This document shows, piece by piece, positions 4,789 through 52,651 of a stretch of 52,898 nucleotides of DNA. The translations under genes and the position numbers were made by a program. Each line of letters begins with the position of its first letter. The stretch's first letter is position 1. The DNA lies in NCBI GenBank assembly GCA_017524385.1, contig JAFWSS010000224.1, positions 1-52,898 of the forward strand, read 5' to 3'. The DNA is from Prevotella sp. GTDB taxonomy: Bacteria; Bacteroidota; Bacteroidia; Bacteroidales; Bacteroidaceae. Under the pieces are notes generated by a model. The model saw nothing but the letters and a program-made list of their open reading frames with translations, had not been told where the DNA came from and searched no databases.

Positions 4789-5014
4789 TCCCGAAAGTGA
4801 TCATATGTCCCTTTAACTCCTCTTTAACTCCCTTTTAACTCCCGAAAGTGATCATATGTCCCTTTAACTCCCCTTTAACTCCTTTTTAACTCCCCTTTAA
4901 CTCCTCTTTAACTCCCCTTTAACTCCCCTTTAACTCCCCTTTAACTCCTTTTTAACTCCCCTTTAACTCCCTTTTAACTCCTCTTTAACTCCCCAAAAAT
5001 CATATGTCCCTTTA
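4789..5014 (+). repeat. CATATG/YYTTTAACTCC array, locus 1 (15 units)
   Basis: The word CATATGTCCC occurs three times (4802, 4852, 5001), the first two preceded by CCGAAAGTGAT. Between them lie 3 and then 12 head-to-tail 11-bp units, YYTTTAACTCC, where only the first two pyrimidines vary (CC, TC, CT or TT). There are no spacers. It lies between susC and a small peptide gene. Related loci are at 7538, 11092, 35813 (reverse) and 52529. Confidence 0.9.
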
Positions 5015-5028
5015 CCCAGGATATAATA

Positions 5029-5064
5029 CAAGTCTCCCCCGAACCAAGGTTCGGGGGAGACTTG
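5029..5064. terminator. Perfect 17-bp inverted repeat, probable bidirectional terminator
   Basis: The arm at 5029-5045 (CAAGTCTCCCCCGAACC) pairs exactly with 5048-5064, leaving only AA between. A second inverted repeat, ATTGGTTT ... AAACCAAT, follows and overlaps the end of the 59-residue gene. There is no strong T tract on either side. It could end the small minus-strand gene or insulate it from the repeat array. Confidence 0.55.
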
Positions 5065-5077
5065 TGATTGGTTTCAT

Positions 5078-5257
5078 TTAAAAACCAATGCTCAGATGGT
5101 CGTTGCCTTTTGGGCTGGTCAGGGGACTGTCATCCTCATCGAAATCGTAGGAGTTGCTCAACTGGCCATCGCCAACTTCGTCGATCAGGCTCAACATCAA
5201 TGGCAGTTGAAGGGTGCCTTCAACACACTCCGTAACGGGTTTGATGTACTTCTTCAT
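5078..5257 (-). CDS. Small acidic-tailed peptide, 59 residues (MKKYIKPVTE type)
   Basis: An open frame runs from ATG at 5257 to TAA at 5078. The product starts MKKYIKPVTECVEGTL, continues LMLSLIDEVGDG, and has an acidic stretch DFDEDD before ending HLSIGF. I recognise the general style of short Bacteroidales proteins that begin MKK-Y-x-x-P and have an Asp/Glu-rich tail, but know of no assigned function. There is no classical signal peptide; a short hydrophobic stretch lies at residues 17-25. Support comes from a well-placed promoter (TTTG, 20 bp, TAATTTTA), a leader of about 70 nt and a strong hairpin just beyond the stop. Confidence 0.65.
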   Translation of the reverse strand: MKKYIKPVTECVEGTLQLPLMLSLIDEVGDGQLSNSYDFDEDDSPLTSPKGNDHLSIGF

Positions 5258-5337
5258 GGCTCTTATCTTTTTGTTTTAATTATTGAATGCTAGTTCCTAT
5301 GGCATAGGTTTGAGTGGGGAATGCCATTTAACGGGTG

Positions 5338-5369
5338 TAAAATTATGCTATTTTTTCCAATTGTGCAAA
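5338..5369 (-). promoter_or_regulatory. Bacteroidetes-type promoter for the 59-residue peptide gene
   Basis: On the minus strand TTTG (5366-5369), a 20-bp spacer and TAATTTTA (5338-5345) match the -33/-7 pattern with one mismatch. The transcript would carry a leader containing a TGGCAT ... ATGCCA stem. Confidence 0.5.
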
Positions 5370-5461
5370 AAAAAATGTCCAAAATCAACAATTTGCCATA
5401 CAAAAAAAGCATTTTGATATTTTTTTTTGACGAATTGTCGCCCTTTTAAGATATGGATGCA

Positions 5462-5908
5462 TCACCAACCCTGAGGTTCGTACTTGATGACAAAGCCATA
5501 TACATAATGGGGGTCGTCGTTCACGGGAGACGTGTAGAGGGCATAGGGCTCTTTTATGAACTTGCGGTTCGGTCCCAAACCGCCGACAGGGGTGTAGCCA
5601 CACATACGGGCTGAGCCTTCCACTTCGCGGGGAGACGGAGCCGTGGTGAAGAGGAATTTCATATAGTCCACATGGTCACCCACAATGTAAAGCATTGCAT
5701 CGGTTTGCGTCTTCTTGTTGGTGAAATAGACAAGGTCGCCGCGGCGGGTGACTTTCTTGAAACCTTCCTTCTTCATCGCTTTTTTGGCTACTTTGAAATC
5801 CATGCGCATGGAGTAGTCGGCAATGTGAAGGCAGGAGTTCATTTCCTGGGCTTGTGATGCCAGGCAGAACAGCAAGGCTGTTAGCAGGGTGAAGAATGCT
5901 TTTTTCAT
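5462..5908 (-). CDS. Small secreted protein of unknown function, 148 residues
   Basis: The start is placed at MKKAFFTLLTALLFCLASQAQ, a clear Sec signal peptide likely cleaved after SQA. A good -7 element lies 30 nt upstream, so longer open frames reaching past 6000 are not needed. The mature part of about 125 residues is basic in its first half (KVAKKAMKKEGFKKVTRRGD) and mixed alpha/beta in appearance. It ends YVYGFVIKYEPQGW. I do not recognise the family. It is a single-gene unit between two small-gene clusters. Confidence 0.8.
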   Translation of the reverse strand: MKKAFFTLLTALLFCLASQAQEMNSCLHIADYSMRMDFKVAKKAMKKEGFKKVTRRGDLVYFTNKKTQTDAMLYIVGDHVDYMKFLFTTAPSPREVEGSARMCGYTPVGGLGPNRKFIKEPYALYTSPVNDDPHYVYGFVIKYEPQGW

Positions 5909-5937
5909 TAGAGGATAGGTTTTTGGTTTGTAATGTG

Positions 5938-5945
5938 CAAATATA
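5938..5945 (-). promoter_or_regulatory. -7 promoter element for the 148-residue secreted protein
   Basis: The minus strand reads TATATTTG, an exact TAnnTTTG match, 30 nt before the start codon. The -33 position has only a T-rich partial match. Confidence 0.45.
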
Positions 5946-6035
5946 CGCAATTTTTTGAAAAATGTTTCATTTTTCACTTTTTTCTTTTTCAAAAACCTTT
6001 CTTTTTGCATATGTTTGTGAAAAAACACTGCATTA

Positions 6036-6067
6036 TTTGGAAAATACTCAAGATATGTGTATCTTAG
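6036..6067 (+). promoter_or_regulatory. Promoter for the tandem Cys-motif genes
   Basis: TTTG (6036-6039), a 20-bp spacer and TATCTTAG (6060-6067, one mismatch to TAnnTTTG) lie about 80 bp before the first of the two paralogous genes. Confidence 0.45.
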
Positions 6068-6146
6068 CAACCTGAATCCATGCATGGGAAAACTCTTTTG
6101 AAATGATAGGTGGAGAATGAAGTAGAACAATAAACATTCGACGGCA

Positions 6147-6500
6147 ATGGAATATGGAAAAAAGATTTGCGAGAAATTGAAAGGAATCCGTATGGAGGTT
6201 GCTCGCGCCAATGGCATCACATATCAACCAGCTGAGTGCAGCCACGAGGGTGATTGCGCTGGCACTTGCCCGCAGTGTGAAGCGGAAGTGAGATATCTCG
6301 AGCATAAACTCGGCTTGAAACGGGTGGTGGGGAAGGCTGCTTTCATCGGTATGGCGGTGGGGGTTGCCGTGGCTGTTGAGTCGTGTGGATTTAGAGTCTC
6401 CGGAATGTTGGTCAACCAAAAGGATGAAGCAGACACCACCGCCGTGGCTGACGATGCCAATGCCGCAAAAACCATAGATATGCCCGTGGACGGGAAATAA
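6147..6500 (+). CDS. Cys-motif single-pass membrane protein, paralog 1
   Basis: This 117-residue protein has three parts. An N-terminal helical head (MEYGKKICEKLKGIRMEVARA) leads to a cysteine cluster at residues 31-46, C-x5-C-x3-C-x2-C, reading CSHEGDCAGTCPQCEAE. This could bind a metal or iron-sulfur cluster. A hydrophobic segment at about 59-80 (GKAAFIGMAVGVAVAVES) precedes a polar tail ending KTIDMPVDGK. The head-to-tail order suggests a cytoplasmic Cys domain anchored in the inner membrane with a short periplasmic tail. Similar Cys heads occur in Bacteroidales on some TonB-like proteins, from memory. It is followed 29 bp later by a close paralog. Confidence 0.8.
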   Translation: MEYGKKICEKLKGIRMEVARANGITYQPAECSHEGDCAGTCPQCEAEVRYLEHKLGLKRVVGKAAFIGMAVGVAVAVESCGFRVSGMLVNQKDEADTTAVADDANAAKTIDMPVDGK

Positions 6501-6529
6501 CACCGTTTGAAGAACAAAAAGCAACGACT

Positions 6530-6892
6530 ATGAAATATGGGAAAAAGGTTTGCGAGAAGCTGAAGGAAATCCGTGTGGAGGTTGCTCGCGTCAATGATAT
6601 ACCCTACGAGCCTGCCGAGTGCTACCATGAGGGCGACTGCTCAGGTTCATGCCCCCAATGTGAGGCTGAGGTGAGATACCTGGAGCGCCAACTTGACTTG
6701 AAGCGAGTCGTGGGGAAGGCTGCTTTCATCGGAATGGCAGTGGGCGTCGCTATGGCTGTCGAGTCATGCGGAATGAGGACAGCCGGGGAGGCTGATATTA
6801 CCGGGATGCTGGAAGAGGTGGACACACCAAAGGTGGATTCTGCTCAAAAATGTCCCGCCAACACCATTGACATGCCCGTAGACGGGAAATGA
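6530..6892 (+). CDS. Cys-motif single-pass membrane protein, paralog 2
   Basis: This 120-residue tandem copy of the preceding gene keeps the head (MKYGKKVCEKLKEIRVEVAR), the cluster CYHEGDCSGSCPQCEAE, the membrane segment (GKAAFIGMAVGVAMAVESCG) and the last residues TIDMPVDGK. The linker between membrane segment and tail has diverged and carries a second acidic stretch. Conservation at both ends, with a free linker, suggests that the Cys head and the terminal tail are the working parts. The function is unknown. The two genes are probably one operon ending at the hairpin 6924-6959. Confidence 0.8.
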   Translation: MKYGKKVCEKLKEIRVEVARVNDIPYEPAECYHEGDCSGSCPQCEAEVRYLERQLDLKRVVGKAAFIGMAVGVAMAVESCGMRTAGEADITGMLEEVDTPKVDSAQKCPANTIDMPVDGK

Positions 6893-6923
6893 AAGGCTAT
6901 ATTTTTAGAAATGGAAATCGAAA

Positions 6924-6959
6924 AATCGGAATAGTCAGATTCCTCTGATTATTCCGATT
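6924..6959. terminator. Hairpin between convergent genes
   Basis: AATCGGAATAGTCAGA (6924-6939) pairs with TCTGATTATTCCGATT (6944-6959) around TTCC, 16 bp with one G-T pair. It lies between the Cys-motif operon and a convergent gene. The following TCCGATT/CAGATT-rich stretch up to 7010 repeats parts of the stem. Confidence 0.6.
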
Positions 6960-7010
6960 GTTCGTATTGCTCCGATTGCTCAGAACACTCTGATTTCTCA
7001 GATTCTGCGA

Positions 7011-7427
7011 TTAATATTCCATCATTGGCTCAAGCTCTTTGGCTTGGGCAATCATTTTCTCCACTTCCTTCAGGCTGGGAACGCGGTTGACCAAATTCTT
7101 TGCCTCGTTGATCTCTACCAGTTTGGCGGTAGTGTTTTCTGCGTTGCGGTTGCGGAATTCCTTCACTGTGTCGATGCCGGCGGCTTCCAGAAGTTCGGAG
7201 AACTGTGGTCCAACGCCGTTGATGCGCATTAGGTCGCAGTGGTTGGCCCAGGTGAGGATGAGTTTGGCTGGGATGCCTGTTGCCTCTGCCAGTTCTTTGC
7301 GGCCGGCGGGCTTGCAACATTTTTTCAGCAATTCTTCATCGGTGTTGATGCCTGCGGCAATCAGTTTCTCTGCGTAAACGGGACCGATACCCTCGATGTC
7401 GATAATTTTGTACGTCATATTTGTCAA
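7011..7427 (-). CDS. DUF4332-like helix-hairpin-helix protein
   Basis: This 138-residue protein has two helix-hairpin-helix units. The first reads IEGIGPVYAEKLIAAGINTDEELL and the second INGVGPQFSELLEAAGIDTVKEF, each with the G-h-G-P hairpin and a following aGI-D/T motif typical of DUF4332 and DNA-repair HhH folds. A helical tail follows (SLKEVEKMIAQAKELEPMMEY). Such domains usually contact DNA backbone or act as scaffolds; the specific role here is unknown. The start may be at the first Met (7427) or at MTYKIID (7418). It is monocistronic and convergent with the Cys-motif pair. Confidence 0.85.
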   Translation of the reverse strand: MTNMTYKIIDIEGIGPVYAEKLIAAGINTDEELLKKCCKPAGRKELAEATGIPAKLILTWANHCDLMRINGVGPQFSELLEAAGIDTVKEFRNRNAENTTAKLVEINEAKNLVNRVPSLKEVEKMIAQAKELEPMMEY

Positions 7428-7537
7428 TGTTTAGGTGAATGTAATTCGTTTTTCAGCATCAGCAAATGTAGGCCTTTTTTTTCAAACACACCACATTTTT
7501 TGTCGTTTTATAGGAAATTTTAACAGTCAAGGTGCCG

Positions 7538-7600
7538 CATATGTCCCTTTAACTCCCCTTTGAATCCTTATAGTTGATCGGATGCAAAACTTGTCAAAAT
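7538..7600 (+). repeat. CATATG/YYTTTAACTCC element, locus 2 (2 units plus tail)
   Basis: CATATGTCCC at 7538 is followed by CCTTTAACTCC and the degenerate CCTTTGAATCC. A tail AGTTGATCGGATGCAAAACT follows, matching the tail of loci 4 and 5, and then AT-rich TTAATTATTAATT sequence. The AT-rich end runs into the last codons of the DUF1680 gene (7624). Confidence 0.8.
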
Positions 7601-7623
7601 TATTAATTATAAATTGTTAATTA

Positions 7624-10600
7624 TTAATTATTAATGATTTTCCTCTTCCCTTTTGTTAGCACGATGCGGTCGTGCCCGTTGGTGGGTCTTCCTCCTATGT
7701 CGTATGTGGCTTTTGCTTGGTTTGTGACATTAGCCCTTGGTGAAGTGACTCCTACGGTGTTGGCCACATAGGCATCGACATCGCTGACGAAGTTGATGTC
7801 GTAGATGTCACTTTGCCCGGTGGTGGAAGTGAGGCCGAAGATGGTTTGTCCCACGCAGATGCTGGGATGTATGCCGGTGAAGTTCTCGTAAAGCCCGCTT
7901 GTCGTCATGTCCCATGCCACGACGTTCTGGCTGACACCGTCTGCTGTCAAGGCGCTAATCTTGGTGGGAGCCACTTGTGTGCCATGGTTGGAGCCGTTGA
8001 GCCACCACAGGTAGGAGGCGCCTGTGGCGGTGCTCAGGTTGGTGCCCCTCACCACCATGAATATCTGGTCGCTGTTGATGGCATACTCCTTGTCTTGGTA
8101 TTTGAGCATCAGCGCCACGTTGTTGTTGCCGGAAGCCTTGACGTGGATGATGTTTTTCTCATTGTCGTAGGTGATGTTCGAGGCCGAAACGCGGTTGGGG
8201 TCGCCCGTGGTCCATTCGTTGGCTATGAAATGATAGGCTTGGTAGGTCTCCTCTTCATAGTCCTTGAGCAGCCTGATGTAATAGATGCCCGGACAGAGCG
8301 TGGTGGAAGAGGCGGTAAGCCTTACGACAAACTGTCTCTTCACGTTCCCGGAACCATCCTTGACAAGGTTTTCGGCGATGGGGTATTCGATGTTGTAGAA
8401 GCCGTTGGCATCGCTCCCTTTGGCGGAAGAGGGGATGGTGATGTCGGCCACTTTCGTCCCGTCGATGGTGAGTGTGGCTTTCCTGCCGTGGTCGGCGAGG
8501 TTGAAACGGAACATGACGCTGAGCCGCTCGCCCACCTGTTGTTCGTTGTAGAGTGTGTATTGGATGTAGCCGTTCTGCCTTGCGTCGCGGTAGTGCTCGG
8601 TGTTGTAGTCGCCAGTGCTGGAGTCTGAGGAGTATTTGGCTTCGTGGCCAGCCTCGCTCTGCTGCTCTCCAGGAGCCACGAAGTCGAGTGTGCGCTGTGC
8701 CAAGGCTTCGTTGGCTGCCTCGTTCAGTGCCATGTCGCTCTTCTCGTAGTTCTCTTCGGTCTGTTGGTACCAGTAGCACATGTAGCGCGCGTGGTGGATT
8801 TGGTAGAAGGGGCGCAGTTCGAGTTGGTTCCAGGCATAGGACTCCACACCTTCACGGCTGGCATCGATGGTGAACCTTAGGTCGGTGCCTTCCTTCATCT
8901 TGATGCGGTCGAGCACGTTGGAGCGCTCTCCAATGAGCAGTGGCGAGGAGACGAGGCTCTTGGCCGACGCCCTGTTGCCGGGTGCGTGGTCCATGCGCCC
9001 GGCACCGGCATATTCGTTCTGCAGTTTCTCGTAACGCAGTCCTGTTTCTGAAGACTCCTGTTGAGAGGAGGTGGTGGTGGGTGCTCCGAGGAGGATGGGG
9101 CCGAACTTGAATGCGATGTAGTCGGTGTAGTTGGGGCATTCCTCGTAACTCAGTTCCATGGGCAGCAATACGACGATGCGGTCGCCTTCTGCCCAGGTGC
9201 GGTTGATGGTGACATAACTGGCGGTGCCCTGGGTCACGGCGGCGTTTACCGCGGCTCCGTTGACCGCCACCTGGTATTCTTTACCCGCCCATGCCGGGTG
9301 TCGCACGGCGATGGTGTAAGTGCCGCCTTTGGTCACGGTGAGGGTGGTGGTGGCGGTGTAGGGCGTGGGGATGTTGGAGGCCGCCGGGTTGATGCATGGG
9401 AAGAGGGTCTCCTGCCTGATGCCGAATGTCTCGTCTTCAAGGACGCTGGGTGTGAAGAGGTTGACGTAAAGGGTCTCCTGCCCGTCGTGGGTGTAGATGA
9501 AGTGCCCGTATTTGCAGTGGTTCTCCATGCCGGTGCCCACACAGCACCACATCCCTTGGTTCACCTGTGAGTAGATGCGGTAGCCTTGGGGCCTCAGCGT
9601 GGTGAAATAGACATATCCTCCGGTTTCCGGGTCTTGGGTCGACAGGATGTGGTTCCACATCGTCTGCTCGTAAAAGTCGGCATAACTGGCGTCGCCGGTG
9701 CGGTCGCTCATCATCTCCGTGAGCTTCAGCATGTTGTTGGAGTTGCACGACTCCGGTCCGTCGAGTATGTCGATGTAGCGGTTGGAGTTGGCTTTGGCGA
9801 GGAAATGCTCGCTGACGCTGTTTCCCCCGATGCACACGGTGCGGTTGTGTGCAACATCGGCCCAGAAGTTGGTCGCGGCCTTTTGATAGGTGGTGGCTGT
9901 GGCGTCTTCCTCGCAGATGCGCTCCATGCCGATGTATTTCGGCACCTGGGTGTTGGCGTGTCTGCCGTCGAGGAAGGTGGTGTTGAGTGTCTGCATGCCG
10001 TTGAGCATCGTCTTGTGCGTGTATTTCTTCGCTGCGGTGAGGTATTTGGCGTCGCCGGTGAGCTGGTAGGCGTCGAGCATGCTCTCGTTCATGCCCCCAT
10101 GCTCGATGTTGAGCATGTTCTCCATGTCGCCGGAACTGACCTTGGCCACCACGTTGACACTCCAGTCGGCGAGTTTGAGGAACATTTGCCGTGCCGTCTC
10201 GCTATTCCCATAGAGGAAGGCGTCGCGCAGTCCGGCAAGTATCTTGTGCTGGCAATAGAAGGGCACCCACCCGCCACGGTTGCGTATGCCGCTGATGTCG
10301 CCCCTGAAAAGGGTCTTCCATTCGTTGTTGATGGGCTGGCCTCCTATGAATCCGTAAAGGCCGTCGGCGCTGTTGTCATATTGGTCCTGGCAGTCTTTCA
10401 TCACATTCACCATGTAGTCCATGCGCTCTTTCAACCGTGACTTCATCTCGGTGTCGTGGCTGCAGGCATAGCCTAAAGCCAGGGCGGAGAGGTAGTGACC
10501 TCCCACGTGCCCGTCAAGATTGAAACTGGAGTCTCCCCAGTTGGGGAAGGAGGGATGCTTGCTTTCCCATTTGTAGTAGGGGCTGGAGGTGTCGGTGGTG

Positions 10601-10815: not shown

Positions 10816-10885
10816 AATAGGTAAGGATGGGTGGTTCTTGGAGGCTTGAGGGCCTTGGTTTTGTTGTAGTTTGGCAATCTCGAAG

Positions 10886-10893: not shown

Positions 10894-11022
10894 CACATTT
10901 ATATCGAGAGAAACAAGAAATATGGCGTTTTTTCCCGAAAATGTGTTGCCATTCACGAAATTTTGTGTATCTTCGTGCCCTGAAAGCATATTATATTATT
11001 ACTCAACTTACAATCAGGAATG

Positions 11023-11121
11023 ATGAGGCGTGAAGCAAGGATTTAAAGGTGTGTGGGTGCATCATTGGCTTCCCATATGACATCACGTGGGCATATGTCC
11101 CTTCAACTCCCCTTCAACTCC
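11023..11121 (+). repeat. CATATG/YYTTTAACTCC element, locus 3 (2 units) with ATGAGGCGTGAAG head
   Basis: ATGAGGCGTGAAG (11023-11035) lies 69 nt before CATATGTCCC (11092). Two CCTTCAACTCC units follow (11100-11121). Locus 5 has the same head 70 nt before its CATATG. The element forms the upstream region of the pantothenate kinase gene, and its tail may overlap the kinase start region. Confidence 0.75.
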
Positions 11122-11151
11122 TGAATTATTTTGACGCAAATGAGCAAGCGA

Positions 11152-35782: not shown

Positions 35783-35875
35783 AACTCAAGTTTCGCATTC
35801 GCTCAACTTTCTGGAGTTAAAGAGGAGATAAAGGGGAGTTAAAGGGGAGTTAAAGGGGAGTTAAAGGGACATATG
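35783..35875 (-). repeat. CATATG/YYTTTAACTCC element, locus 4 (5 units plus tail), reverse
   Basis: On the minus strand GCATATGTCCC is followed by five 11-bp units (35813-35867; one is variant, TTTATCTCC). The tail AGAAAGTTGAGCGAATGCGAAACTTG follows (given here as two words: AGAAAGTTGAGCGAA and TGCGAAACTTG), then AGTTAATTATTT. The tail matches loci 2 and 5. Confidence 0.85.
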
Positions 35876-35886
35876 CCCACTTATGC

Positions 35887-35930
35887 CGCTATTTTTCGAC
35901 GCGGTTGGATTATTAATGCCAGACGGCCTG
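35887..35930. repeat. TTTTTCGAC...GGATTATTAATGCC...GACGGCCTG repeat, copy 1
   Basis: TTTTTCGACGCGGTTGGATTATTAATGCCAGACGGCCTG (as words: TTTTTCGACGCGGTTGG, ATTATTAATGCCAGACGG, CCTG) matches 47872-47910 with few differences. It lies directly beyond locus 4, so two repeat families abut here. Confidence 0.75.
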
Positions 35931-41913: not shown

Positions 41914-44442
41914 ATGAAAAATCCATTCCTTCTCCATCCAAGACTTAAGAGACAGTGCTTGCTGATGCTGTTGACGGTCATTGCCACTCTTTGCCACACG
42001 GCAATGGCCGACGCTCAGGTGTCGTTTGGCCACGCCACGCCGTTCGACGGCGATTGGCGATTTGCTCTTGTCGGAACCGACATCCGACCCACCGAGGGAA
42101 CCCCCATCGCAGCAGAAAAACCCAACTATGACGACACCCGCTGGCGCCGTCTGCAACTGCCGCACGACTGGTCGGTGGAGCACCCGATGTCGCCACAACT
42201 ATTTTCATGCACGGGGTATCTTCCCGGCGGGGTGGGGTGGTATCGTAAGCATTTTTCACTCAAGGAGGGCAAACATCTTGACGACACACAGTGGTTTGTC
42301 TATTTCGAGGGCATATACAACCGTGCGGAGGTCTTTCTCAACGGCCATCTCCTTGGAATGCGCCCCAACGGATATGCATCCGTGCTCTATGACATGACAC
42401 CTTGGCTCGACAAGGATGGCGACAATGTACTTGCAGTGCGTGTAGACCACTCGCGGCAGGCCGACTCGCGATGGTACACAGGCAGCGGCATATACCGGCA
42501 CGTATGGCTGGTGGAGGCCGGACCTGTGCATCTCGCGCAATGGGGAAGTGCATGGCGACTGAAGCAACTCTCCCGTGGCACCGCCACCGTGGAGGTGGAT
42601 GTGGAGACCACCACCGCTGCGGGATACCAGAAAACCGTTCCCACGCTGAAGGCACAGGTGACCATCTTTGATGCCCAGCATCGCCAAGTGGCACAGAAGA
42701 CGGCCGCCATCGGCAAACAGGAGCGACAGACCCTCCAACTGAAGATTGCCCAGCCGCAATTGTGGAATGTAGGAAACGGCTATTTATATACGGTGGAAAC
42801 CCAACTGCTTGATGCCGGCAATGGCGACATCGTTGACAGCAGCAAGATGCGCATGGGACTGAGGACCCTACGCTTCGACCCCGACAAGGGATTTTTCCTC
42901 AATGGAAACAATATGAAGGTGAAAGGCGTGTGTCTGCACCATGACGCTGGCGTTCTCGGGGCCGTGGTGCCCCGAGACGTATGGGAGCGACGACTCGTCA
43001 ACCTGCTGGATATCGGCGTGAATGCCATCCGAATGAGCCACAACCCACAAGCCCCCGTCGTGTATGAACTTTGCGACTCTCTCGGCCTGCTTGTCATGGA
43101 TGAAGCAAGCGACGAGTGGGAATTCCCCAAGCGGAAATGGCTGGAGGGATGGAACCGTGGCACACCTGGCTATGAGGGGTCCTACGACTTCTTTGAGGAA
43201 TGGATAGACCGCGACGTCGCCGACATGGTGCGTCGCGACCGCAACCACCCCTGTGTCTTCCTCTGGTCCATCGGCAACGAGGTGGACTATCCCAACGACC
43301 CTTATTCTCATCCCGTGCTCGACGGAAGCAGCATCACACAGCCCATGTATGGTGGTTACAAGCCAGAACAGCCTGACGCCCAGCGCATCGGCCGAATAGC
43401 CGAACGGCTCACCAAGGTGGTGAGGCAGATTGACAACAGCCGTCCCACGACGGGTGCTTTGGCGGGTGTGGTGATGTCGAATGAGACATCCTATCCACAG
43501 GCTGTCGACGTCGTGGGCTACAACTACACTGAGAGCCGGTATGACGAGGACCACCACACCTATCCCAAACGTGTAATCTACGGTTCCGAGAACCGCCATG
43601 ACCTGGAGGCATGGAGAGCCGTGGAGCAACATGACTTCATCTTCGGACAGTTCCTCTGGACAGGCATCGACTACCTCGGGGAGAGTGGTGCATGGCCTGC
43701 ACGTGGCTCGTCGGCGGGCCTGCTCGACCTGAAGGGCGAGCGGAAACCACAGGGTTGGTGGAGGGCGTCGCTATGGAGCGAAAAGCCGGTGTGCTACATC
43801 GGAACCTACCCTGCCATGGGCAACCGCCGCGGTCGTCAGTCGCAGCGCCGCGACCCTGGGGTGTCTATCTATGCCCAGGACACTTGGAACTATAAGGAGG
43901 GACAGACCATACGCGTGGTGTGCATGACCAATCAGGAGCACGCACGGCTGCTGCTCAACGGCGAGGAGGTGGCTCAGTCTAAGGAGAAAGACCAGGCTAC
44001 AGGGGCGATATGGTGGGACATCCCTTTCCTACCCGGGGTGCTCAGGGCGGAGGCGCTCGACGGCCAGGGGAATGTCGTAGCCTCGTATGAGATACCGACC
44101 ACAGGGAGACCGGCTGCCTTGCGTGTGACTACAGACAAGACCGTGTTGACAGGGCGCGGACGCATCGCTCATGTCATCATCGAGGTCACCGACTCGGAAG
44201 GAAGGACGGTGCCACTATCCGACAACGAAATTTCTGTCCGCGTGACTGGCGCTGGCCGTCTTTTGGGACTTGAGGGTGGCGATATGGGCGACACCAGCAA
44301 CCTGCGCGACTGGCGACAGCGCGTTGTCAGGGGCAGGCTCCTTGCTTATGTCGAGGCGACACAAGACGACGGCACCATCACCGTGAGGGCGGAGTCGCCC
44401 TTGCTCGATGAAACGGAGACGGAGATAAAAATTGAAAATTGA
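41914..44442 (+). CDS. GH2 family glycoside hydrolase (beta-galactosidase/beta-glucuronidase type)
   Basis: The exported retaining glycosidase has 842 residues from the start MKNPFLLHPRLKRQ. The signal helix LLMLLTVIATLCHTAMADA follows a basic stretch. Domain order: sugar-binding jelly roll (about 35-215; DDTRWRRLQLPHDWSVEHP and YFEGIYNRAEVFLNG), Ig-like domain (about 216-325), TIM barrel (about 330-620; GVCLHHDAGVLG, IRMSHNP), then C-terminal beta domains (DUF4982-type, by impression). The acid/base E456 lies in WSIGNEVDYP and the probable nucleophile is E559 in YGSENRHD. The substrate within GH2 is unclear. The last codons (KIEN) are made by a repeat-like AATTGAAAATTGA. Confidence 0.92.
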   Translation: MKNPFLLHPRLKRQCLLMLLTVIATLCHTAMADAQVSFGHATPFDGDWRFALVGTDIRPTEGTPIAAEKPNYDDTRWRRLQLPHDWSVEHPMSPQLFSCTGYLPGGVGWYRKHFSLKEGKHLDDTQWFVYFEGIYNRAEVFLNGHLLGMRPNGYASVLYDMTPWLDKDGDNVLAVRVDHSRQADSRWYTGSGIYRHVWLVEAGPVHLAQWGSAWRLKQLSRGTATVEVDVETTTAAGYQKTVPTLKAQVTIFDAQHRQVAQKTAAIGKQERQTLQLKIAQPQLWNVGNGYLYTVETQLLDAGNGDIVDSSKMRMGLRTLRFDPDKGFFLNGNNMKVKGVCLHHDAGVLGAVVPRDVWERRLVNLLDIGVNAIRMSHNPQAPVVYELCDSLGLLVMDEASDEWEFPKRKWLEGWNRGTPGYEGSYDFFEEWIDRDVADMVRRDRNHPCVFLWSIGNEVDYPNDPYSHPVLDGSSITQPMYGGYKPEQPDAQRIGRIAERLTKVVRQIDNSRPTTGALAGVVMSNETSYPQAVDVVGYNYTESRYDEDHHTYPKRVIYGSENRHDLEAWRAVEQHDFIFGQFLWTGIDYLGESGAWPARGSSAGLLDLKGERKPQGWWRASLWSEKPVCYIGTYPAMGNRRGRQSQRRDPGVSIYAQDTWNYKEGQTIRVVCMTNQEHARLLLNGEEVAQSKEKDQATGAIWWDIPFLPGVLRAEALDGQGNVVASYEIPTTGRPAALRVTTDKTVLTGRGRIAHVIIEVTDSEGRTVPLSDNEISVRVTGAGRLLGLEGGDMGDTSNLRDWRQRVVRGRLLAYVEATQDDGTITVRAESPLLDETETEIKIEN

Positions 44443-44452
44443 CCTTCGGTCG

Positions 44453-44513
44453 AAGTTGCTCACGCTCGGCAGACTCCAAGCAAGCTTGGTCTGCTCTCGC
44501 TCAATCGCAACTT
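44453..44513. repeat. 61-bp structured hairpin repeat, copy B (3' flank of GH2)
   Basis: The outer arms AAGTTGC (44453-44459) and GCAACTT (44507-44513) pair. The inner stem pairs GCAGACTCCAAG (44469-44480) with CTTGGTCTGC (44485-44494) around CAAG. The core CAAGCAAGCTTG and flanking CTCGGCAGA and CTGCTCTCGCT match copy A at 22-83, while the outer arms are entirely different yet still paired. Confidence 0.6.
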
Positions 44514-44569
44514 TGAAGATTCCCTCTTGAAGCATCCTGTATAAAATTATCAACTCTATTATCTTTAAG

Positions 44570-45457: not shown

Positions 45458-45499
45458 GTCCTCCCCGCCAAAAGGCACTGAGCAAACCCCGCCGTCATC

Positions 45500-45532: not shown

Positions 45533-46034
45533 CACGTCTCCCCGCCAAGAGGTCTTCGTTTGGTGAAACGCTTCCATGGGGAGGCAAACTCAGTGATGAA
45601 GAAGTGTGTTTTTTATACGTATAGAAAAACCCTCCATTTCATTTTTTTACTCTACCTTCGCACTCGGAAATCAAAACATAGGAACACAAACAATATTAAC
45701 TCAACATTTGCAAATAGGAAAAATGAAGCGTGAAGAAGGTCTTGAAAGAACAGGATTGCAGCAATGTCGCCAAAAAGTCAGAAAAAGTGGACATGGCTTG
45801 ATTAACTAAAGATGCTATGTAGGTGTTAAGAACCATTTACACTGTATGATTGGAAATTCGAGTGAATCATGTAGGTTTAATTAAAACTCCCTTATAACTA
45901 ATAGAAAAAATAATTTGGTATTATATTAACATATAATTTCCATACAATTAATCATAAATTACAGTGTGTCAGAATTTTTGGTTAATTCGTGATAATTCGT
46001 GTTCTTTATTAATTAATTTAATCGCCACTAAAAT
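45533..46034. other. Intergenic region with repeat copy X and an ATGAAGCGTGAAG motif
   Basis: ATGAAGCGTGAAG (45723-45735) matches the ATGAGGCGTGAAG head of repeat loci 3 and 5 at 12 of 13 positions, and could also start a 28-codon frame (MKREEGLERTGLQQ...). No CATATG array follows it. At 45882-45896 AAAACTCCCTTATAACT faintly resembles a decayed array. From 45903 copy X of the AT-rich repeat runs to the AAA ATPase start. Confidence 0.5.
45903..46029. repeat. Dispersed AT-rich repeat copy X (uninterrupted form)
   Basis: This aligns with 28882-29085 but lacks both hairpin insertions of that copy: TCATAAATTACAGTGTGTCAG and TGATAATTCGTGTTC run straight through (written as two words). It forms the whole leader of the ATPase gene at 46035. 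Confidence 0.7.
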
Positions 46035-47762
46035 ATGAGAAAGCCAAAAAACTTCAGAAGAAACGACGCAAAGGAAAAGGAAACCATCACGATCAACCAT
46101 ATCGGTGAAATCAACATGCTCTCGGCCATCGAAATGATTTTGAACATCTCGGAGAACTCCTCACTTGATGCCGCTCTAATGAAACCCCTCGAACCTTTCT
46201 TCAAATACATTTCCGACCTCCAAGGCCTCACCAACATTCAGGCGCTTCTGCTTGCCCTCATGGTCGAGGAGAGTTCAGATGGCAACGTCGTCACCTGCTC
46301 CAGGTTGGCAAGGTTCCTCGACTGCACCAACGTCCGCATCATGCAGTTCCAAGAGGACATCGACGATATGGTGAAACGCAGGTTCTTGAGGAGAACGAAA
46401 AGAAGATATGGCCCGGAATCTATGGGCTATGTCGTCCCGGAGGACGTCATCACTGCCATCAAGGGCGACACGCGCTTCGTGCCTAAGTCGTTGGCAGCCA
46501 AGAACGGCATACATTTCTTTCAGTTGTTCTTCGACCTCACTCACCAACGAAAGGAGGAGGAAATCGATACCGAATTGCTCATTGAGGAGTTTGTGCAACT
46601 CCTTGAGGCTAATGCATCCTTGAGGTTTGTCAAGAGATTGGAGAAACTCAACCTCTCTGACAACAGCAAGTTGATAGTGACACATTTGGCTCGTCATCTG
46701 GTGCTCAGCCAACATGAACAAATTCCGATTGAAAGTATGGAGTATCTCTTCGACGACCGCCATATGGCATACAACGAACTCCATTCTTTGGAGGAAGGAA
46801 GGCATGTGCTCATCAAGAAGGGCATCGTGGAATATGCGGGAAAACAAGAGTTCCTCGACAAGGCGACCTACAAACTCTCCGATAAGGCAAAGGAGAACTT
46901 GTTGAAGGGGTTCTCTCTTCCCAAACATATGGACGCACCCGTGATGGTGGTGAAGGCCGACGGCATCGTGAAGAAAAAGCTGTTCTTCAACGACATGGTG
47001 GGGCGTCAGATTCACGACCTCTCGGAAATGCTCTCCGTTGAGAGGTTCGCCGCCATACAGGCACGATTGAAGGAGCGTGGCAGGAGGACGGGGTTCGCAT
47101 GCCTCTTCTACGGAGCACCCGGAACGGGGAAGACGGAGAGCGTGTTGCAAATCGCCCATGCCACGCGGCGTGACATCATGCAGGTCGATATGTCGGAAAT
47201 CAAGAGCAAGTGGGGGGGGGAGAGCGAGCAAAACATCAAGGCGGTCTTCGACAACTACCGTGCTCTATGCAAGGTGTGTGACAAAACGCCCATTCTGCTC
47301 TTCAACGAGGCCGACGCCATACTCGGCAAACGCATGGGGCAGGCCATGCGGGCAGTGGACAAGATGAACAATGCCATACAGAACATCGTCCTTCAGGAGA
47401 TGGAAACGCTAGATGGCATCATGATCGCCACGACCAACTTGGAGCAGAGCCTTGACGGAGCTTTCGAGCGACGTTTCCTATACAAGGTGCGTTTCGAGCG
47501 ACCCGATGTCGAGCAACGTCGGAAAATCTGGCTGTCGATGATGCCCTCACTCACCGATGACTTCGCATTCCAACTCGCCACCGACTACGACTTCAGCGGA
47601 GGACAGATAGAGAATATTGTCCGCAAATGTGATGTCGAGTCCATCCTCTACGGAGACTCCGCCATCGATGCCGACAAAATACACCGCTTCTGCCAAGAGG
47701 AGACCATCCTCCAAAACAACACCGCAAGAATAGGATTCTTCTCCTCTGCACCATCGACATAA
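46035..47762 (+). CDS. AAA+ family ATPase with winged-helix-like N-terminal region
   Basis: The 575-residue protein has an N-terminal region of about 300 residues, mostly helical, with LARFLDCTNVRIMQFQEDIDDMVKRRFLRR resembling a winged-helix DNA-binding segment. The classical AAA module starts near 315: Walker A GAPGTGKT (360-367), Walker B ILLFNEADAIL (N424-E425 where most families have D-E), sensor 1 MIATTNL and the arginine finger FERRF. The substitution D to N in Walker B is seen in some related Bacteroidetes ATPases from memory. There is no signal peptide. Its function and partners are unknown. It is monocistronic behind repeat copy X. Confidence 0.88.
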   Translation: MRKPKNFRRNDAKEKETITINHIGEINMLSAIEMILNISENSSLDAALMKPLEPFFKYISDLQGLTNIQALLLALMVEESSDGNVVTCSRLARFLDCTNVRIMQFQEDIDDMVKRRFLRRTKRRYGPESMGYVVPEDVITAIKGDTRFVPKSLAAKNGIHFFQLFFDLTHQRKEEEIDTELLIEEFVQLLEANASLRFVKRLEKLNLSDNSKLIVTHLARHLVLSQHEQIPIESMEYLFDDRHMAYNELHSLEEGRHVLIKKGIVEYAGKQEFLDKATYKLSDKAKENLLKGFSLPKHMDAPVMVVKADGIVKKKLFFNDMVGRQIHDLSEMLSVERFAAIQARLKERGRRTGFACLFYGAPGTGKTESVLQIAHATRRDIMQVDMSEIKSKWGGESEQNIKAVFDNYRALCKVCDKTPILLFNEADAILGKRMGQAMRAVDKMNNAIQNIVLQEMETLDGIMIATTNLEQSLDGAFERRFLYKVRFERPDVEQRRKIWLSMMPSLTDDFAFQLATDYDFSGGQIENIVRKCDVESILYGDSAIDADKIHRFCQEETILQNNTARIGFFSSAPST

Positions 47763-47868
47763 CCAAGTGCGGAATGTCACCCCAAAACCGCCGTGTGCAC
47801 CGCCATCCCCAACGCCCGCCGTGCTAGCACACCGGATGCCCGATGAATGGCCATGACAACTATGGTTT

Positions 47869-47982
47869 TTTTCCGACCTGCGATTGGATTATTAATGCCG
47901 GACGGCCTGTAAGGCCAACGAGATATCAGACCATGGCAACGCCCTGGCCCACCCTGCGGTGGGGTGTTGATCATACCTCTAT
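47869..47982. repeat. Three-hairpin dispersed repeat, copy 2 (longest)
   Basis: TTTTTTTCCGACCTGCG and ATTGGATTATTAATGCC then GGACGGCCTGTAAGGCC. Three successive hairpins can form: GGCCT/AGGCC, CCATGG/CCCTGG (one mismatch) around CAACG, and CCCACC/GGTGGG around CTGC. The left third matches 35887-35930; TTTTTCGACCTGCGGTT recurs at 48158 and GACCGACGGCCTG at 36650. Confidence 0.7.
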
Positions 47983-48239
47983 TCATCACAACAACGAATA
48001 AACTTTGGTTGAAAGGATTGCCATAATATTCCCCCCTCAATCAATGAGGAACATTCCTCAAAAGTCAAATCTCCAAGCAACTTCATCGTCTCGGGAAGAC
48101 AGACACTGCACAAGGAGCTGCAAAAACCGAAAGCCGCACCTTTCTTCTGCGCTGAAAATTTTTCGACCTGCGGTTAAAATTTGATGAACAACCTATGCCC
48201 AAAGACCGTGTCCACACCCCGGGAGGCTTACTCGGAGTG

Positions 48240-48300
48240 TAACATCCCCGCCCCTGTAGGGGCAGGTCTTGTGCCTGACCGCAAGGGGTAAGGGGTGGGG
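48240..48300. repeat. GC-rich dispersed repeat, copy 2
   Basis: CATCCCCGCCCCTGTAGGGG, then CAGGTCTTGTGCCTGACC and GCAAGGGGTAAGGGGTGGGG. It matches 28731-28795. A related inverted copy without the CAGGTC core lies at 48395-48438. Confidence 0.7.
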
Positions 48301-48678
48301 TCTGTAACTTCAACGCCAAGAGACCGTGTCCACACCCAGAGCGTTGAAAACGTTATATTAGAAAAACGCAAGAATAACCTTTGGGTCAAATACCCCACCC
48401 CTGCCCCTCCCCTCAAGGGGCGGGGATATGCGCACACACCTTTTGCTCACGACAAATTGACGCAACGCATTGAACATTCTTGGCGTTTGACTCATTGAGC
48501 ATTTTTGTTTTTTACAGAATGGAACTATTTTGAAAATACTTCCGATTGATGCAACCGCACAGGTAGAAAATTTTTTTCGTTTCATACGAAAAAAAATGGT
48601 GAGCGATGATAGAAAGGGTGTAACTTGTGTATCTGTATTTCGTCAAATGAATGATTTTAACAAACAATTGTTAGGAAA

Positions 48679-49389
48679 ATGTTTAAAAAAACAGTTATGG
48701 AAAAATATGAAAAAATCATTGTGGCGGCAATCGTCGCATTCGGACTATTGCTGCTGGGCCTTTGCTTGAAGGGGGGTATCGACAACTTCACCAACAAAGA
48801 CCGTCGTGTGACCGTAAAAGGATTGGCAGAGAAAGTGGTCGATGCCGACGAAGTGGTGTGGACTTTGAGGCTGGAAGAGTCTGACAATGAATTGAAACCC
48901 ATCTTTGGCAGACTTAAGAGCAAAGTTAAGGTCATTGAAGATTACCTCAAGGAAAAGGGCGTTGACCAAAAGGGCAACATTTCCGTGGGCCAATTTGATA
49001 TCACCGACAACCTCGCCGATGCATGGGGAGACAACAAACCACGCTACAATTACACTGTGGGTTGCGCAGTCTATGTCGCTTCGAATGATACCAAGTTCAT
49101 CAGTGAAATGGTAGCACAGTCGGACGAACTCATCGACCGCGACATCATCTTGGATTCCAACTTTGCCGAATACGAATACACCCAATTTCAGACACTGAAA
49201 CCGGAAATGATGGCGGAGGCCATATCCAACGCTGAGAAAACCGCGAAGCAGTTTGCCGAGAACAGCCACTCGAAAATCAACAAAATCGTGGAGGCTGGAC
49301 AAGGAGAGTTTTCCATCGAGAGTTCTGAAATCCCCTACAAAAAGAATGTCAGGGTGGTGTCCACCATCACCTATTCTCTCAGGGATTGA
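48679..49389 (+). CDS. SIMPL (DUF541) domain protein, membrane-anchored
   Basis: The 236-residue protein has one N-terminal hydrophobic anchor (KIIVAAIVAFGLLLLGLCL, about residues 12-30). A SIMPL/DUF541 domain follows: RRVTVKGLAEKVVDADEVVWTLRL at its start, the ISVGQFDITDN and YTVGCAVYVAS strands, and the C-terminal repeat of that fold ending NVRVVSTITYSLRD. SIMPL proteins are periplasmic and poorly understood (oxidative or envelope stress in other bacteria). The start may be MFKKTV (48679) or MEKYEK (48697). It is monocistronic. Confidence 0.9.
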   Translation: MFKKTVMEKYEKIIVAAIVAFGLLLLGLCLKGGIDNFTNKDRRVTVKGLAEKVVDADEVVWTLRLEESDNELKPIFGRLKSKVKVIEDYLKEKGVDQKGNISVGQFDITDNLADAWGDNKPRYNYTVGCAVYVASNDTKFISEMVAQSDELIDRDIILDSNFAEYEYTQFQTLKPEMMAEAISNAEKTAKQFAENSHSKINKIVEAGQGEFSIESSEIPYKKNVRVVSTITYSLRD

Positions 49390-49881
49390 GTCACTTGAGC
49401 ATCAGTTGGTGCTCATTCCTGATGCCATTCATCGGGAAAGGATGAATTTATAGAGGATTTGTAATTCGCCAAAATCTTTGTTGAAAATAGGTCAACATTG
49501 ATTTTGTCGGATTGCAAATCCTTTTTTTATTCTTGACGGGCATAAGATTCGCATTATATTCTTGACGGACAAAAGATTCGCACCGCTGTCAAGAATGTTC
49601 TTCGCAATGTGTTGGATATACAGAGGATTTGTTGGTAACTTCAAGCGAAGGCATAACTTCGTTAACTTCTACTAATGTCGGGATAAATGCCAAAGGACTT
49701 TGAAGAAACGTCCAAAATCTCTGTAAAATAGTCTCCATCCTGCCTTTCGCAAGTTGTTTTGGATGTTTTTTGCATTTTCTTAGACGATTGTGTCTATTCT
49801 TTACGACAAAACCATTAAATTTGCATTCAATACCAAAAACATATCATCTTTAAGAAGATTGATCATCCACAACAGCAAAAT
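49390..49881. promoter_or_regulatory. Long upstream region of GH127 with a 25-bp direct repeat
   Basis: Two 25-bp copies, 49529-49553 and 49558-49582, each starting ATTCTTGACGG and ending AAGATTCGCA, match at 23 of 25 positions with a centre-to-centre spacing of 29 bp. The inverted half-site GTCAAGAAT follows at 49588-49596. Also present: AGAGGATTTGT twice (about 49453 and 49616). This arrangement looks like a regulator binding region. No gene is seen. Confidence 0.45.
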
Positions 49882-52344
49882 ATGAACAAACTACTATTCA
49901 CCTTCATTGGAGCTTGCGCCATAAGCCTTTCGGCCTCCGCCCAGTTGCAGATTCAAGAGGTGTCGTTCGCACAAGTGCACCTGGCTGATGATTTCTGGGC
50001 ACCCCGCATAGAGACCAATCGCACAGTCAGCATCCCTTCCGCATTTCGGGAATGTGAGAAGAACGGGCGGTTTGACAATTTCGCCCTTGCAGCCCAGAAC
50101 AACGGCAGGATGACTACCACCGTGAAAGAGCATCGTGGCGATTTCTCGTTTGATGACACCGACCCCTACAAGATCATCGAAGGCGCATCCTATTCTCTTG
50201 CCGTACACTATGACAAGAAACTCGACCAGTATCTCGACTCCGTCATCCACCTCATCAGCCTGGCCCAGGAAGACGACGGCTACCTCACCACCTGCGTGAC
50301 CAACAAATGCACCCGCCTGAGTGGATGGTGGGGAACGCACCGATGGGAGCGCATCAACTCGCATGAGTTATACAATTCCGGCCACCTGATAGAGAGCGCC
50401 GTAGCACATTACCGCGCAACAGGAAAGCGCAATTTCTTGGATGTGGCCATCAAGAATGCCAACCTGGTGTGCAAGACGTTCGGGCCTGACGAAGGACAAA
50501 TCCATCGTCCCGGCGGCCATCCCATCATCGAGATGGCTCTCTGCAAACTATATAAGGTCACGGGCGACAAGAGATACCTCGAGGGCGCGAAATACTTCGT
50601 CGAGGAGACCGGTCGTTGTACCGATGGGCACAATCCCTCGGAATACTCCCAGGACCACAAACCCATCCTGCAGCAGGACGAAATCGTGGGACATGCCGTA
50701 CGCGCAGGCTATCTCTTCAGCGGCGTCGCCGACGTGGCGTCGCTCACCGGCGACCAATCCTATTTCAAAGCCCTGGAGCGCATATGGGACAACATGTCGT
50801 CGAAGAAACTGTTCATCACCGGCGGCATCGGCAGTCGTCCTCAGGGTGAGGGCTTCGGACCCAACTATGAGTTGTGGAACCACACGGCATATTGCGAGAC
50901 TTGCGCCGCCATTGCCAATGTCTACTGGAACTACCGCATGTTTCTCGCCACCGGCGACAGCAAATATGTCGATGTGTGCGAGCGTGCCCTTTACAACAAC
51001 GTGCTGAGCGGTGGCTCGCTCAGCGGCGACAAGTTCTTCTACGACAATCCGTTGGAGAGCGACGGCGAACACGAGCGCCAGAGATGGTTCGGTTGCGCCT
51101 GCTGCCCCGGCAACGTCACCCGCTTCATCGCCTCCGTCCCGGGATACATCTATGCGCAGCAAGGCAAGGACATCTACGTCAACCTCTATGCACAGGGAAA
51201 GGCTGAAATCGGACTTGTGGAGTTGGAACAGACCACGGAATACCCTTGGGACGGCCGCGTACGCATCCGCATCGCCAAGGGAGGTGGCAAATATGCCATC
51301 AAATTGCGTGTCCCCTCGTGGCTCAAGGACAGTCCTACGAACAACAATCTCTATGGCTACATAGATGCCGCCCCGTCGGTCGGTTGCTCGGTCAACGGCA
51401 CTCCTGTCTCCACCGCAACCACCTCTGGCTACATCATCCTGCAGCGCAATTGGAAGAAAGGCGATGTCATCGAACTGAACCTCCCGATGCAGGTCAGGAG
51501 GATCGTTGCCAACGACAATGCTGTGGATGACCGTCACAAGGTGGCTCTCGAGCGCGGTCCGGTGGTCTATTGCCTGGAAGGTTCCGACCAGGCCGACGGC
51601 AAGGTGTTCAATAAATACATCCTCGACAGTGCACCGCTTGAAGCCCGTTTCGAGAAAGACCTTCTTGGCGGCGTGGTGGTCGTGGAAGGCCCCGCCAAGG
51701 CACTACAACCCGATGGAGAGGTCGCCGACACCCGCTTCAAGGCCATCCCTTACTCCACATGGAACAACCGCAGGCCACAACAGATGGAGGTGTGGATTGC
51801 CAACAGTCCCGTGAAGGCTGTGCCCACCCCTCAGCCCACCATCGCCACGGCGGCACAGACGTTCTCCAACCGTGGCCCCATACAGAACGATGCACCAGAG
51901 ACGGCACCCACAGACTCATGGGCCGGTGGCGTGAACGACCAGTGGGAGCCCACCCATTCCGCCGACATCTCCAAGCCCTACCACTACTGGTGGTTGAAAC
52001 GTGGCACCACGGAGGCCATTTCCTATCAGTTTGACAAAGAATACGAGGTGTCCAATGTCCAAGTCTATTGGCTGCAACTCGACCATTACGATGGTAGTTT
52101 CCGCGTGCCTGAGTCATGGTCGCTCTACTATCTGACCGCCGACGGCCAATGGCGCGAGGTGGAGGACCACACGGCATACGGTGTGTCGACCGATTGTTAC
52201 AACAGTGTGGATTTCCGTCCTGTACGCACCAAGGGATTGAAAATCCTGGCCAAACTCAGGGAAGGGCAGTCTGGCGGCGTGCTGGAATGGAAAGTCAATT
52301 ACGGGCAGACACTCGACGATGTCGCTGCAGGAAAGCATCCTTAA
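49882..52344 (+). CDS. GH127 beta-L-arabinofuranosidase
   Basis: The 820-residue exported enzyme releases beta-L-arabinofuranose. The signal peptide is MNKLLFTFIGACAISLSASAQ. The catalytic (alpha/alpha)6 barrel with flanking beta domains spans about 25-640. Active-site residues line up with HypBA1 almost number for number: E339-T-C341 in YCETCAAIANV (E338/C340) and C407-C408 in FGCACCPGN (C417/C418), giving the Zn-bound Cys nucleophile. HEL/NSGHLIESAVAHY and GRC...PVTGDKRYL-like helices are family-typical. The C-terminal about 160 residues (WEPTHSADISKPYHYWWLKR...VNYG) look like a discoidin/CBM32-type binding domain. It differs clearly from the larger DUF1680 enzyme at 7.6-10.8 kb, so their linkages may differ. 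Confidence 0.95.
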   Translation: MNKLLFTFIGACAISLSASAQLQIQEVSFAQVHLADDFWAPRIETNRTVSIPSAFRECEKNGRFDNFALAAQNNGRMTTTVKEHRGDFSFDDTDPYKIIEGASYSLAVHYDKKLDQYLDSVIHLISLAQEDDGYLTTCVTNKCTRLSGWWGTHRWERINSHELYNSGHLIESAVAHYRATGKRNFLDVAIKNANLVCKTFGPDEGQIHRPGGHPIIEMALCKLYKVTGDKRYLEGAKYFVEETGRCTDGHNPSEYSQDHKPILQQDEIVGHAVRAGYLFSGVADVASLTGDQSYFKALERIWDNMSSKKLFITGGIGSRPQGEGFGPNYELWNHTAYCETCAAIANVYWNYRMFLATGDSKYVDVCERALYNNVLSGGSLSGDKFFYDNPLESDGEHERQRWFGCACCPGNVTRFIASVPGYIYAQQGKDIYVNLYAQGKAEIGLVELEQTTEYPWDGRVRIRIAKGGGKYAIKLRVPSWLKDSPTNNNLYGYIDAAPSVGCSVNGTPVSTATTSGYIILQRNWKKGDVIELNLPMQVRRIVANDNAVDDRHKVALERGPVVYCLEGSDQADGKVFNKYILDSAPLEARFEKDLLGGVVVVEGPAKALQPDGEVADTRFKAIPYSTWNNRRPQQMEVWIANSPVKAVPTPQPTIATAAQTFSNRGPIQNDAPETAPTDSWAGGVNDQWEPTHSADISKPYHYWWLKRGTTEAISYQFDKEYEVSNVQVYWLQLDHYDGSFRVPESWSLYYLTADGQWREVEDHTAYGVSTDCYNSVDFRPVRTKGLKILAKLREGQSGGVLEWKVNYGQTLDDVAAGKHP

Positions 52345-52418
52345 CCTTTCTTCACTCGGATTTCCAATCAAACAGCGTAAATGATTCATAAACAAATACA
52401 TAAACATATAATTAACGT

Positions 52419-52437
52419 ATAATTAATCATTAATTGA
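52419..52437. repeat. 19-bp flanking direct repeat, left copy
   Basis: ATAATTAATCATTAATTGA, identical to 52652-52670. The two copies bracket the locus 5 element. Confidence 0.85.
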
Positions 52438-52651
52438 ACTTTCGCAAGTAATGGAAAAATGAGGCGTGAAGAGGATCTAAAAAAAGTATGGAGTAATTAT
52501 TTCTCCAAATAATAGCGGAAAAAATGAGCATATGTCCCTTTAACTCCCCTTTAACTCCCTTTTAACTCCTCTTTAACTCCCTTTTAACTCCTCTTTAACT
52601 CCCTTTTAACTCCTCTTTAACTCCTGAAAGTTGAACGAATGCGAAACTAGA
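52438..52651 (+). mobile_element. CATATG/YYTTTAACTCC element, locus 5 (8 units), possibly an inserted non-autonomous element
   Basis: The 214-bp segment begins ACTTTCGCAAG and ends TGCGAAACTAGA, an imperfect inverted terminal match (TTTCGCA/TGCGAAA). Inside are the head ATGAGGCGTGAAG (52459), CATATGTCCC (52529), eight 11-bp units (52537-52624) alternating CT and TC after the first two, and the tail TGAAAGTTGAACGAATGCG. It encodes no protein beyond a possible 17-codon frame (MRREEDLKKVWSNYFSK). Flanking 19-bp direct repeats suggest duplication on insertion. It lies about 95 bp past the GH127 stop. Confidence 0.55.

Follow-up and report, generated by a model that had tools for sequence, protein, structure and literature searches.

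The 52,898-nucleotide stretch of Prevotella sp. DNA analysed here (the window; contig JAFWSS010000224.1 of assembly GCA_017524385.1) carries, at five places between its genes, a fixed head, CATATGTCCC, followed by tandem units of 11 bp. We consider it probable that each array forms the minisatellite inside a non-autonomous miniature inverted-repeat transposable element (MITE), of a Prevotella family for which we demonstrate inverted terminal repeats, target duplications of 7-8 bp, an empty orthologous site for the fifth copy in the window, and local growth of the tandem array. With it Prevotella, which is a major genus of the rumen and gut, gains a MITE family that is bounded, modular and recently active.

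The head and its units recur throughout the genome

A sequence-only reading of the window had proposed a dispersed non-coding element with a fixed head and tail and a variable number of iterons, a proposal that depended on head and tail being common to copies elsewhere in the genome. Genome-wide copies of both were found: in the window's genome (G000; 5,054,690 bases in 272 contigs), allowing two mismatches, we found 233 matches to the 19 bases of head plus first unit, CATATGTCCCTTTAACTCC (124 and 109 by strand; backward control 0 and 0), and a two-unit pattern matches 629 times, again with 0 and 0 in the backward control. This recurrence of the head-plus-unit is not due to chance. Together, 30 loci, 40 further stretches and the window itself (71 sources) yielded 102 distinct heads, one of them without any unit and one cut by a contig end. 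Among the other 100, arrays of four units are found in 36, of one unit in 18, of two in 13 and of three in nine; longer arrays include five, six and eight units in six heads each, and seven and 12 units in three each.

As the sequence-only reading had seen in the window, the units vary mainly in their first two pyrimidines. Across 311 in-phase units in the G000 loci read (leaving aside units with more than two mismatches in the 9-mer), a base other than the commonest stands at position 1 in 45% and at position 2 in 21%, against 0.3-7.7% for the other nine. Three species are alike in this respect, with positions 1 and 2 varying in 45/21%, 48/27% and 43/29% and the other nine in 0 to 8%; founder polymorphism, mutational bias and constraint are all possible sources of this pattern.

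The arrays lie inside a bounded element with inverted ends

Aligning the loci on the tail, and then on their left side, delimits an element composed of ACTCAACTTTCGCAAGTAAGG, a left arm of ~75 bp, AAAGTGA(A/G), the head, n units and NGAAAGTTGAGCGAATGCGAAACTTGAGT. The first bases of a full copy, ACTCAA(C/G)TTTCGCA, stand ~95 bp upstream of CATATG, and its last part is the previously noticed tail, the outer 14 bases of both ends being inverted repeats of each other; the head is thus not the boundary for which it had been taken, since complete copies start at the upstream inverted repeat. The end WACTCAASTTTCGCA was found at 48 places with at most one mismatch (backward control 0 and 2). Forty-three two-ended copies, drawn from several genomes, have terminal inverted repeats as MITEs do, with a short 56-397 bp between the recognised ends, and the arrays are non-coding, in that three successive units place TAA in all frames of both strands.

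Ends and left arm repeat at scattered loci, and the tail is indeed common to the second, fourth and fifth window loci; the earlier view that slippage alone is insufficient is supported by this sharing of head, left arm and right end. Left-arm homology was detected at 20/71 arrays (0/71 on the reversed strand), and conservation upstream of most heads ends near AAGTGAA. Nor are the ends a by-product of the arrays, because genomes with no two-unit match carry the same right end: it occurs at 23, 14 and 5 places in G009, G150 and G028, respectively. Copies with other interiors between the same ends are present in G009, G150, G196 and G252, and G260 holds a ~300-bp element with the same ends, a different interior and no iterons (L350, L351 and L352).

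Some copies are interrupted by further repeats. At L158 and L160 (G000) ~90 bp of inserted sequence (TGAGCTTCGCTCG..GCACAACAATTGTCCC), apparently another small repeat, divide the CATATG head, whilst at L164 (G000, contig C102), and similarly at L134 and L175, the element's left end contains an insert with ends like GTGTCCAATTTGT / CAAATTGGACACC.

Target duplications and an empty site indicate mobility

The flanks of the 43 two-ended copies were compared at lengths of 3 to 15 bp, with 2000 permutations. Identity peaks at 7 bp (0.571 vs 0.427 permuted, z 6.4, 0/2000), followed by 8 bp (z 4.9), and z is at most 2.2 at all lengths other than 7, 8 and 14. Thirteen copies agree at six or more of 7 bases and seven more at seven or more of 8, such that 20/43 carry a duplication, against 3.2% of cross pairs; the family therefore has a target duplication of characteristic length, 7 bp and sometimes 8 bp. 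The base after the element is T in 34/43 copies and the seventh base A in 27/43 (raw counts).

The most direct trace of insertion is copy 5 (52434..52651, + strand), a complete element with both ends recognised: its left end TTGAACTTTCGCAAGTAATGG spans 52434-52454, its head 52529-52538 and its eight units 52539-52624, with the right end extending to 52651. The entire stretch is missing at the syntenic place in the sister species (G224), leaving a clean empty site in which the 15-bp ATAATTAATCATTAA (19 bp counting the next TTGA) stands once; in the window it is doubled around the insertion, at 52419..52433 and 52652..52666 (+). A near-empty site was also found for L111, and L329 of G260 shows, by eye, a similarly long imperfect repeat. 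G260 and a further relative (G086) contain sets of copies with near-identical ends, which look as though they followed recent bursts.

Fate of the element after insertion

The window's remaining copies are less complete. The head lies at 4802, 4853, 5001, 7538, 11092 and 52529 on the + strand and at 35875 on the - strand, all intergenic as judged from the open reading frame list and Pfam-supported neighbours. Locus 1 (4790..5017, +) has three heads (4802, 4853 and 5001), 3 and 12 units, a degenerate TTTACCCAG after the third head, and unrecognisable ends. Locus 2 (7538..7595, +) consists of a head, two units of which the second is degenerate (TTTGAATCC), and a right end at 7572-7595. Locus 3 (11000..11121, +) is a decayed element with a left end at 11000-11018, left-arm homology (E 5.8e-07), a head at 11092-11101, two units, with TTCAACTCC present twice, and an unrecognisable right end. 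Locus 4 (35785..35900, -) retains a left-arm remnant (35876-35900), a head, five units, one of which reads TTTATCTCC, and an intact right end (35785-35808); a decayed left part without iterons lies at 45700..45800 (+). The unit counts of 15, 2, 2, 5 and 8 given in the sequence-only reading can be kept as totals, with two corrections: locus 1 is no uninterrupted run but is made of 3 + 12 units with three heads, and loci 2, 3 and 4 include degenerate units.

Synteny with G224 was assessed for 11 loci (five in the window, four in L086 and two in L105), of which nine could be assigned: six are present or left as remnants and three are absent. Further matches between array loci of G000 and G224 do not enter these numbers, since the presence of an array was itself the criterion by which the G224 loci in question had been selected. 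In place of the array, G224 has an extra frame at two of the three absent loci, one an M48 peptidase (Pfam E 2e-27) and the other a 409-residue frame with no Pfam match. The former is the site of locus 1: across window positions 4545-5025 the M48 peptidase gene of G224 and G086 (typed by Pfam in G224 only) is missing and the array is found in its place. The site of locus 2 holds two tandem elements in G224, and none of these in G086; that of locus 3 holds a remnant in G224 and no copy in G086. Locus 4 has a differently built copy in G086, in opposite orientation and adjoining the orthologous gene; the orthologous gene of G224 has no adjacent array in the fetched stretch, and the other flank is non-syntenic. 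Since insertions differ between close species, the copies could serve as markers.

Arrays are rebuilt where they stand. Two end-less composite arrays of L105 occupy the same places in G224 and G086 with their interiors rebuilt, one being degenerate in G086, and spacers of heads within one locus resemble each other more than permuted ones do (identity 0.653 vs 0.441, 0/2000; 79 loci and 109 heads, with at least two heads at 21 loci), which is what tandem duplication in place would give.

The interior may descend from a hairpin

In several other Prevotella genomes the unit is found on both sides of a loop, in purine form on the left and pyrimidine form on the right, with GGACATTA and TATTGTCC close to the loop. 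Nine such examples chosen by eye fold with z of -4.1 to -8.7, compared with -1.0 and -0.1 for the two window copies folded. An unselected sample of one locus per genome reached z of -3 or below in 10/28 genomes, against 4/53 G000 arrays (Mann-Whitney p 0.046); the 28 are what remains of 30 genomes without G000 and G086, and the 53 what remains of 73 arrays after removal of any that exceeded 150 bp or lay too close to the end of their locus. A universal hairpin was accordingly rejected, given that only these 10/28 reach the threshold, some of them possibly via neighbouring terminators. At least two upstream purine units were counted in 13/129 arrays of G000, G224 and G086 vs 31/76 in other genomes, the latter a sum over rows in which one genome may enter twice (one further G086 array had none); a threshold of one such unit is noisy, with 24/71 upstream and 16/71 downstream in G000. 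In G000 mostly one arm remains, and most arrays have no recognisable ends. We also rejected a G-quadruplex on the purine strand as not conserved, because the length of the G-run depends on the variable pyrimidines.

We propose that a transposase acting in trans would recognise ACTCAA(C/G)TTTCGCA and insert an element of ~150-250 bp at AT-rich intergenic sites, after which the ends would decay whilst the array persists, reshaped by replication slippage and unequal exchange that may add or remove single 11-bp units or whole head-plus-array modules. The interior could stem from a hairpin whose two arms, GGAGTTAAAGG facing CCTTTAACTCC, consisted of tandem units on either side of a ACATATGT-like centre; perhaps the head is the remnant of that centre, and the array the one arm that survived. 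The hairpin form, the single-arm form and the end-less arrays would then offer a natural series for the passage from transposable element to minisatellite. Most likely the element has no dedicated function, and any effects on neighbouring transcripts would be by-products.

Gene context and distribution

By a simple longest-frame prediction, 72/73 sampled arrays lie outside predicted genes, close to gene starts and ends. Between genes running in the same direction, the array points with the genes in 29/39 pairs of G000 (p 0.003), the raw counts being 17/26 in G224 and 5/8 in G086. Of eight neighbours of the window copies submitted to Pfam, five were matched: a TonB-dependent receptor, two GH127 enzymes, a Fumble/BadF-type ATPase and an alpha/beta hydrolase.

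The two-unit pattern occurs in 40/299 genomes of the genus, at 1 to 629 places each, and the head-plus-unit, at one mismatch, in 3/60 relatives (G000 included in both). A scan of named sequences returned at least 82 stretches, 80 rows of which bear the title Prevotella, Prevotellaceae, Bacteroidaceae or Bacteroidales and are mostly of ruminant origin. A phage origin was rejected, with three exact units giving 0 matches in viral contigs.

Other repeats lie nearby. Window positions 1-125 and 44428-44521 belong to another dispersed, hairpin-capable repeat of ~85-95 bp (CGGCAGA..AAGCAAGCTTG..TCTGCTCTCGC). Both G224 and G086 contain it in large numbers, in part as tandem copies, and the copy at 1-125 borders TTCAATY heptads. 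Many partial matches in G224 to window positions ~48154-48572 mark a further multi-copy intergenic repeat.

Alternative explanations

Several observations weigh against a MITE with an internal minisatellite, beginning with its mobilisation. No autonomous element with the same ends was found in a search for PF01609 transposases in G000, which gave five matches, nor in a paired-end scan of the fetched sequence, nor among the ends listed for four genomes. One of the five, an element on contig C33 that we take to be IS1634-like, lies beside a copy but was rejected as its autonomous partner because the inverted repeat of that element is AACCGAAATTCCCG; the other four showed no cognate ends when end patterns were scanned in the fetched stretches. 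Facing ends 3.2 kb apart in G260 were likewise rejected, as they enclose what look like ordinary genes, one frame resembling by eye an ammonium transporter, and no recognised transposase-like frame. As to the duplications, 23/43 two-ended copies have none of 7-8 bp, flanks of 14 bp also score (z 3.0), and that of copy 5, at 15-19 bp, is longer than usual. The proposed hairpin origin leans on a subset, the 10/28 other genomes at z -3, and slippage alone does not explain why, in three species, variation is confined to two C/T positions.

A second family of repeats, with the related ends CTTAAGTTTCGGAAGT, includes L222, L223 (~460 bp), L224 and L233 in G224 and L086:1-230 in G000. Its copies adjoin the present element on two contigs, C33 and C117, and it is the source of the TTACTTAAGTTTCGG end next to the C33 MITE copy.

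Could the two-position pattern betray a host function? A domesticated MITE interior may be maintained as regulatory iterons for a putative host DNA-binding protein recognising TTTAACTCC at intervals of 11 bp, an explanation we regard as unlikely. It would account for nine near-fixed positions beside two free ones, for arrays kept at orthologous loci where the ends are no longer recognisable, and for the orientation bias with respect to same-direction genes. Yet the array at one shared locus has degenerated in G086, 3/9 resolved loci have no array in G224, unit number, spacing and modules vary freely, and the Pfam-matched neighbours in the window have no common theme; moreover, counting only near-consensus units hides decayed arrays. 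The idea that an 11-bp period places every unit on the same DNA face adds little. The DNA helix turns about once every 10.5 bp, and the argument is weak because such a period drifts by ~17 degrees per unit and because heads and A-rich spacers break the longer loci. The idea is equally doubtful in its fullest form, in which a hairpin MITE with arms of an interchangeable 11-bp unit was reduced to a single arm, now an array that renews itself at well over 100 intergenic sites, its 9-bp core TTTAACTCC kept by a putative sequence-specific host binder; if true, a parasite's hairpin arm would have become a genome-wide iteron set.

Less probable still is a function in RNA, whereby copies that are transcribed would form hairpins near gene ends and serve in transcript processing, stabilisation or termination. 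The long stable hairpins of some relatives and the position of arrays by gene starts and ends fit this, but the window copies fold no better than shuffles and few G000 arrays do, and Rfam found one tRNA only, in L086, across the window and four loci, with no match in the window; the repeated RNA motif once suggested gains no support, as a conserved fold, from the two copies folded. We give about as little credence to a head-plus-array module that is itself mobile, independently of the MITE ends, for instance copied by a transposase that acts on single strands or by a reverse transcriptase that makes repeats. Upstream conservation that mostly stops at ~AAGTGAA, the 51/71 arrays without a detectable left arm, and locus 1, which is end-less and yet absent from both relatives, fit such a module, and the last two also count against the MITE reading, as they fit decay poorly; on the other hand, the two end-less arrays of L105 are common to both relatives, as expected of old decayed insertions, and no clean empty site was found for an insertion of the module alone. 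Plain low-complexity tracts of independent origin by slippage are the most improbable of all: other short tandem tracts (7 bp, AT-rich) do occur in the window, but they are contradicted by an empty site, by target duplications and by the head, left arm and right end that scattered loci have in common. A CRISPR array was also rejected, the units being contiguous and without the unique spacers that define one.

Comparison with known systems

We retain the MITE with an internal minisatellite, which shows the features expected of a MITE apart from an autonomous partner, none having been found, and claim for it no membership of BOX or BrickBuilt, both described below. Literature searches with the letters of the element and for Prevotella repeats and MITEs, covering few subscription papers, returned no description of the family among the matches listed, and it appears to be new. 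PINSR of Prevotella intermedia and P. nigrescens (188 bp, intergenic, 177 and 184 copies in two strains; PMC4755523) is likewise a high-copy intergenic repeat of a Prevotella clade; compared by description only, it was rejected as the same repeat, being reported to have no terminal inverted repeats, which the present element has.

The layout of the element, for which the sequence-only reading knew no described counterpart, is not without precedent. In BOX of Streptococcus pneumoniae (PMC3049150), an intergenic composite joins a fixed boxA, a variable number of tandem boxB and a fixed boxC between inverted ends resembling those of insertion sequences (IS), and the number of boxB differs between strains. 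The likeness is one of layout, by description and with no alignment of sequences, and the host of BOX belongs to another phylum; the Prevotella family is set apart by its 11-bp unit, its ACTCAA(C/G)TTTCGCA ends and the presence, in relatives, of units in both hairpin arms. Closer to home, the same bacterial order provides two MITEs of Porphyromonas gingivalis, as portrayed in PMC4596501. MITEPgRS / MITE464 also encloses tandem repeats, and differs in unit length (41 nt) and ends (GAGACTGTTGCA). BrickBuilt follows the same plan as the Prevotella family, with a leader, uninterrupted tandem repeats and a tail inside an intergenic MITE with inverted ends; its 23-nt unit, IS5-like ends GAGACCTTTGCA, 19 copies and target duplications of differing length, compared by eye with that paper's table, contrast with the 11-bp unit, other ends, 7-8 bp duplications and 233 heads described here.

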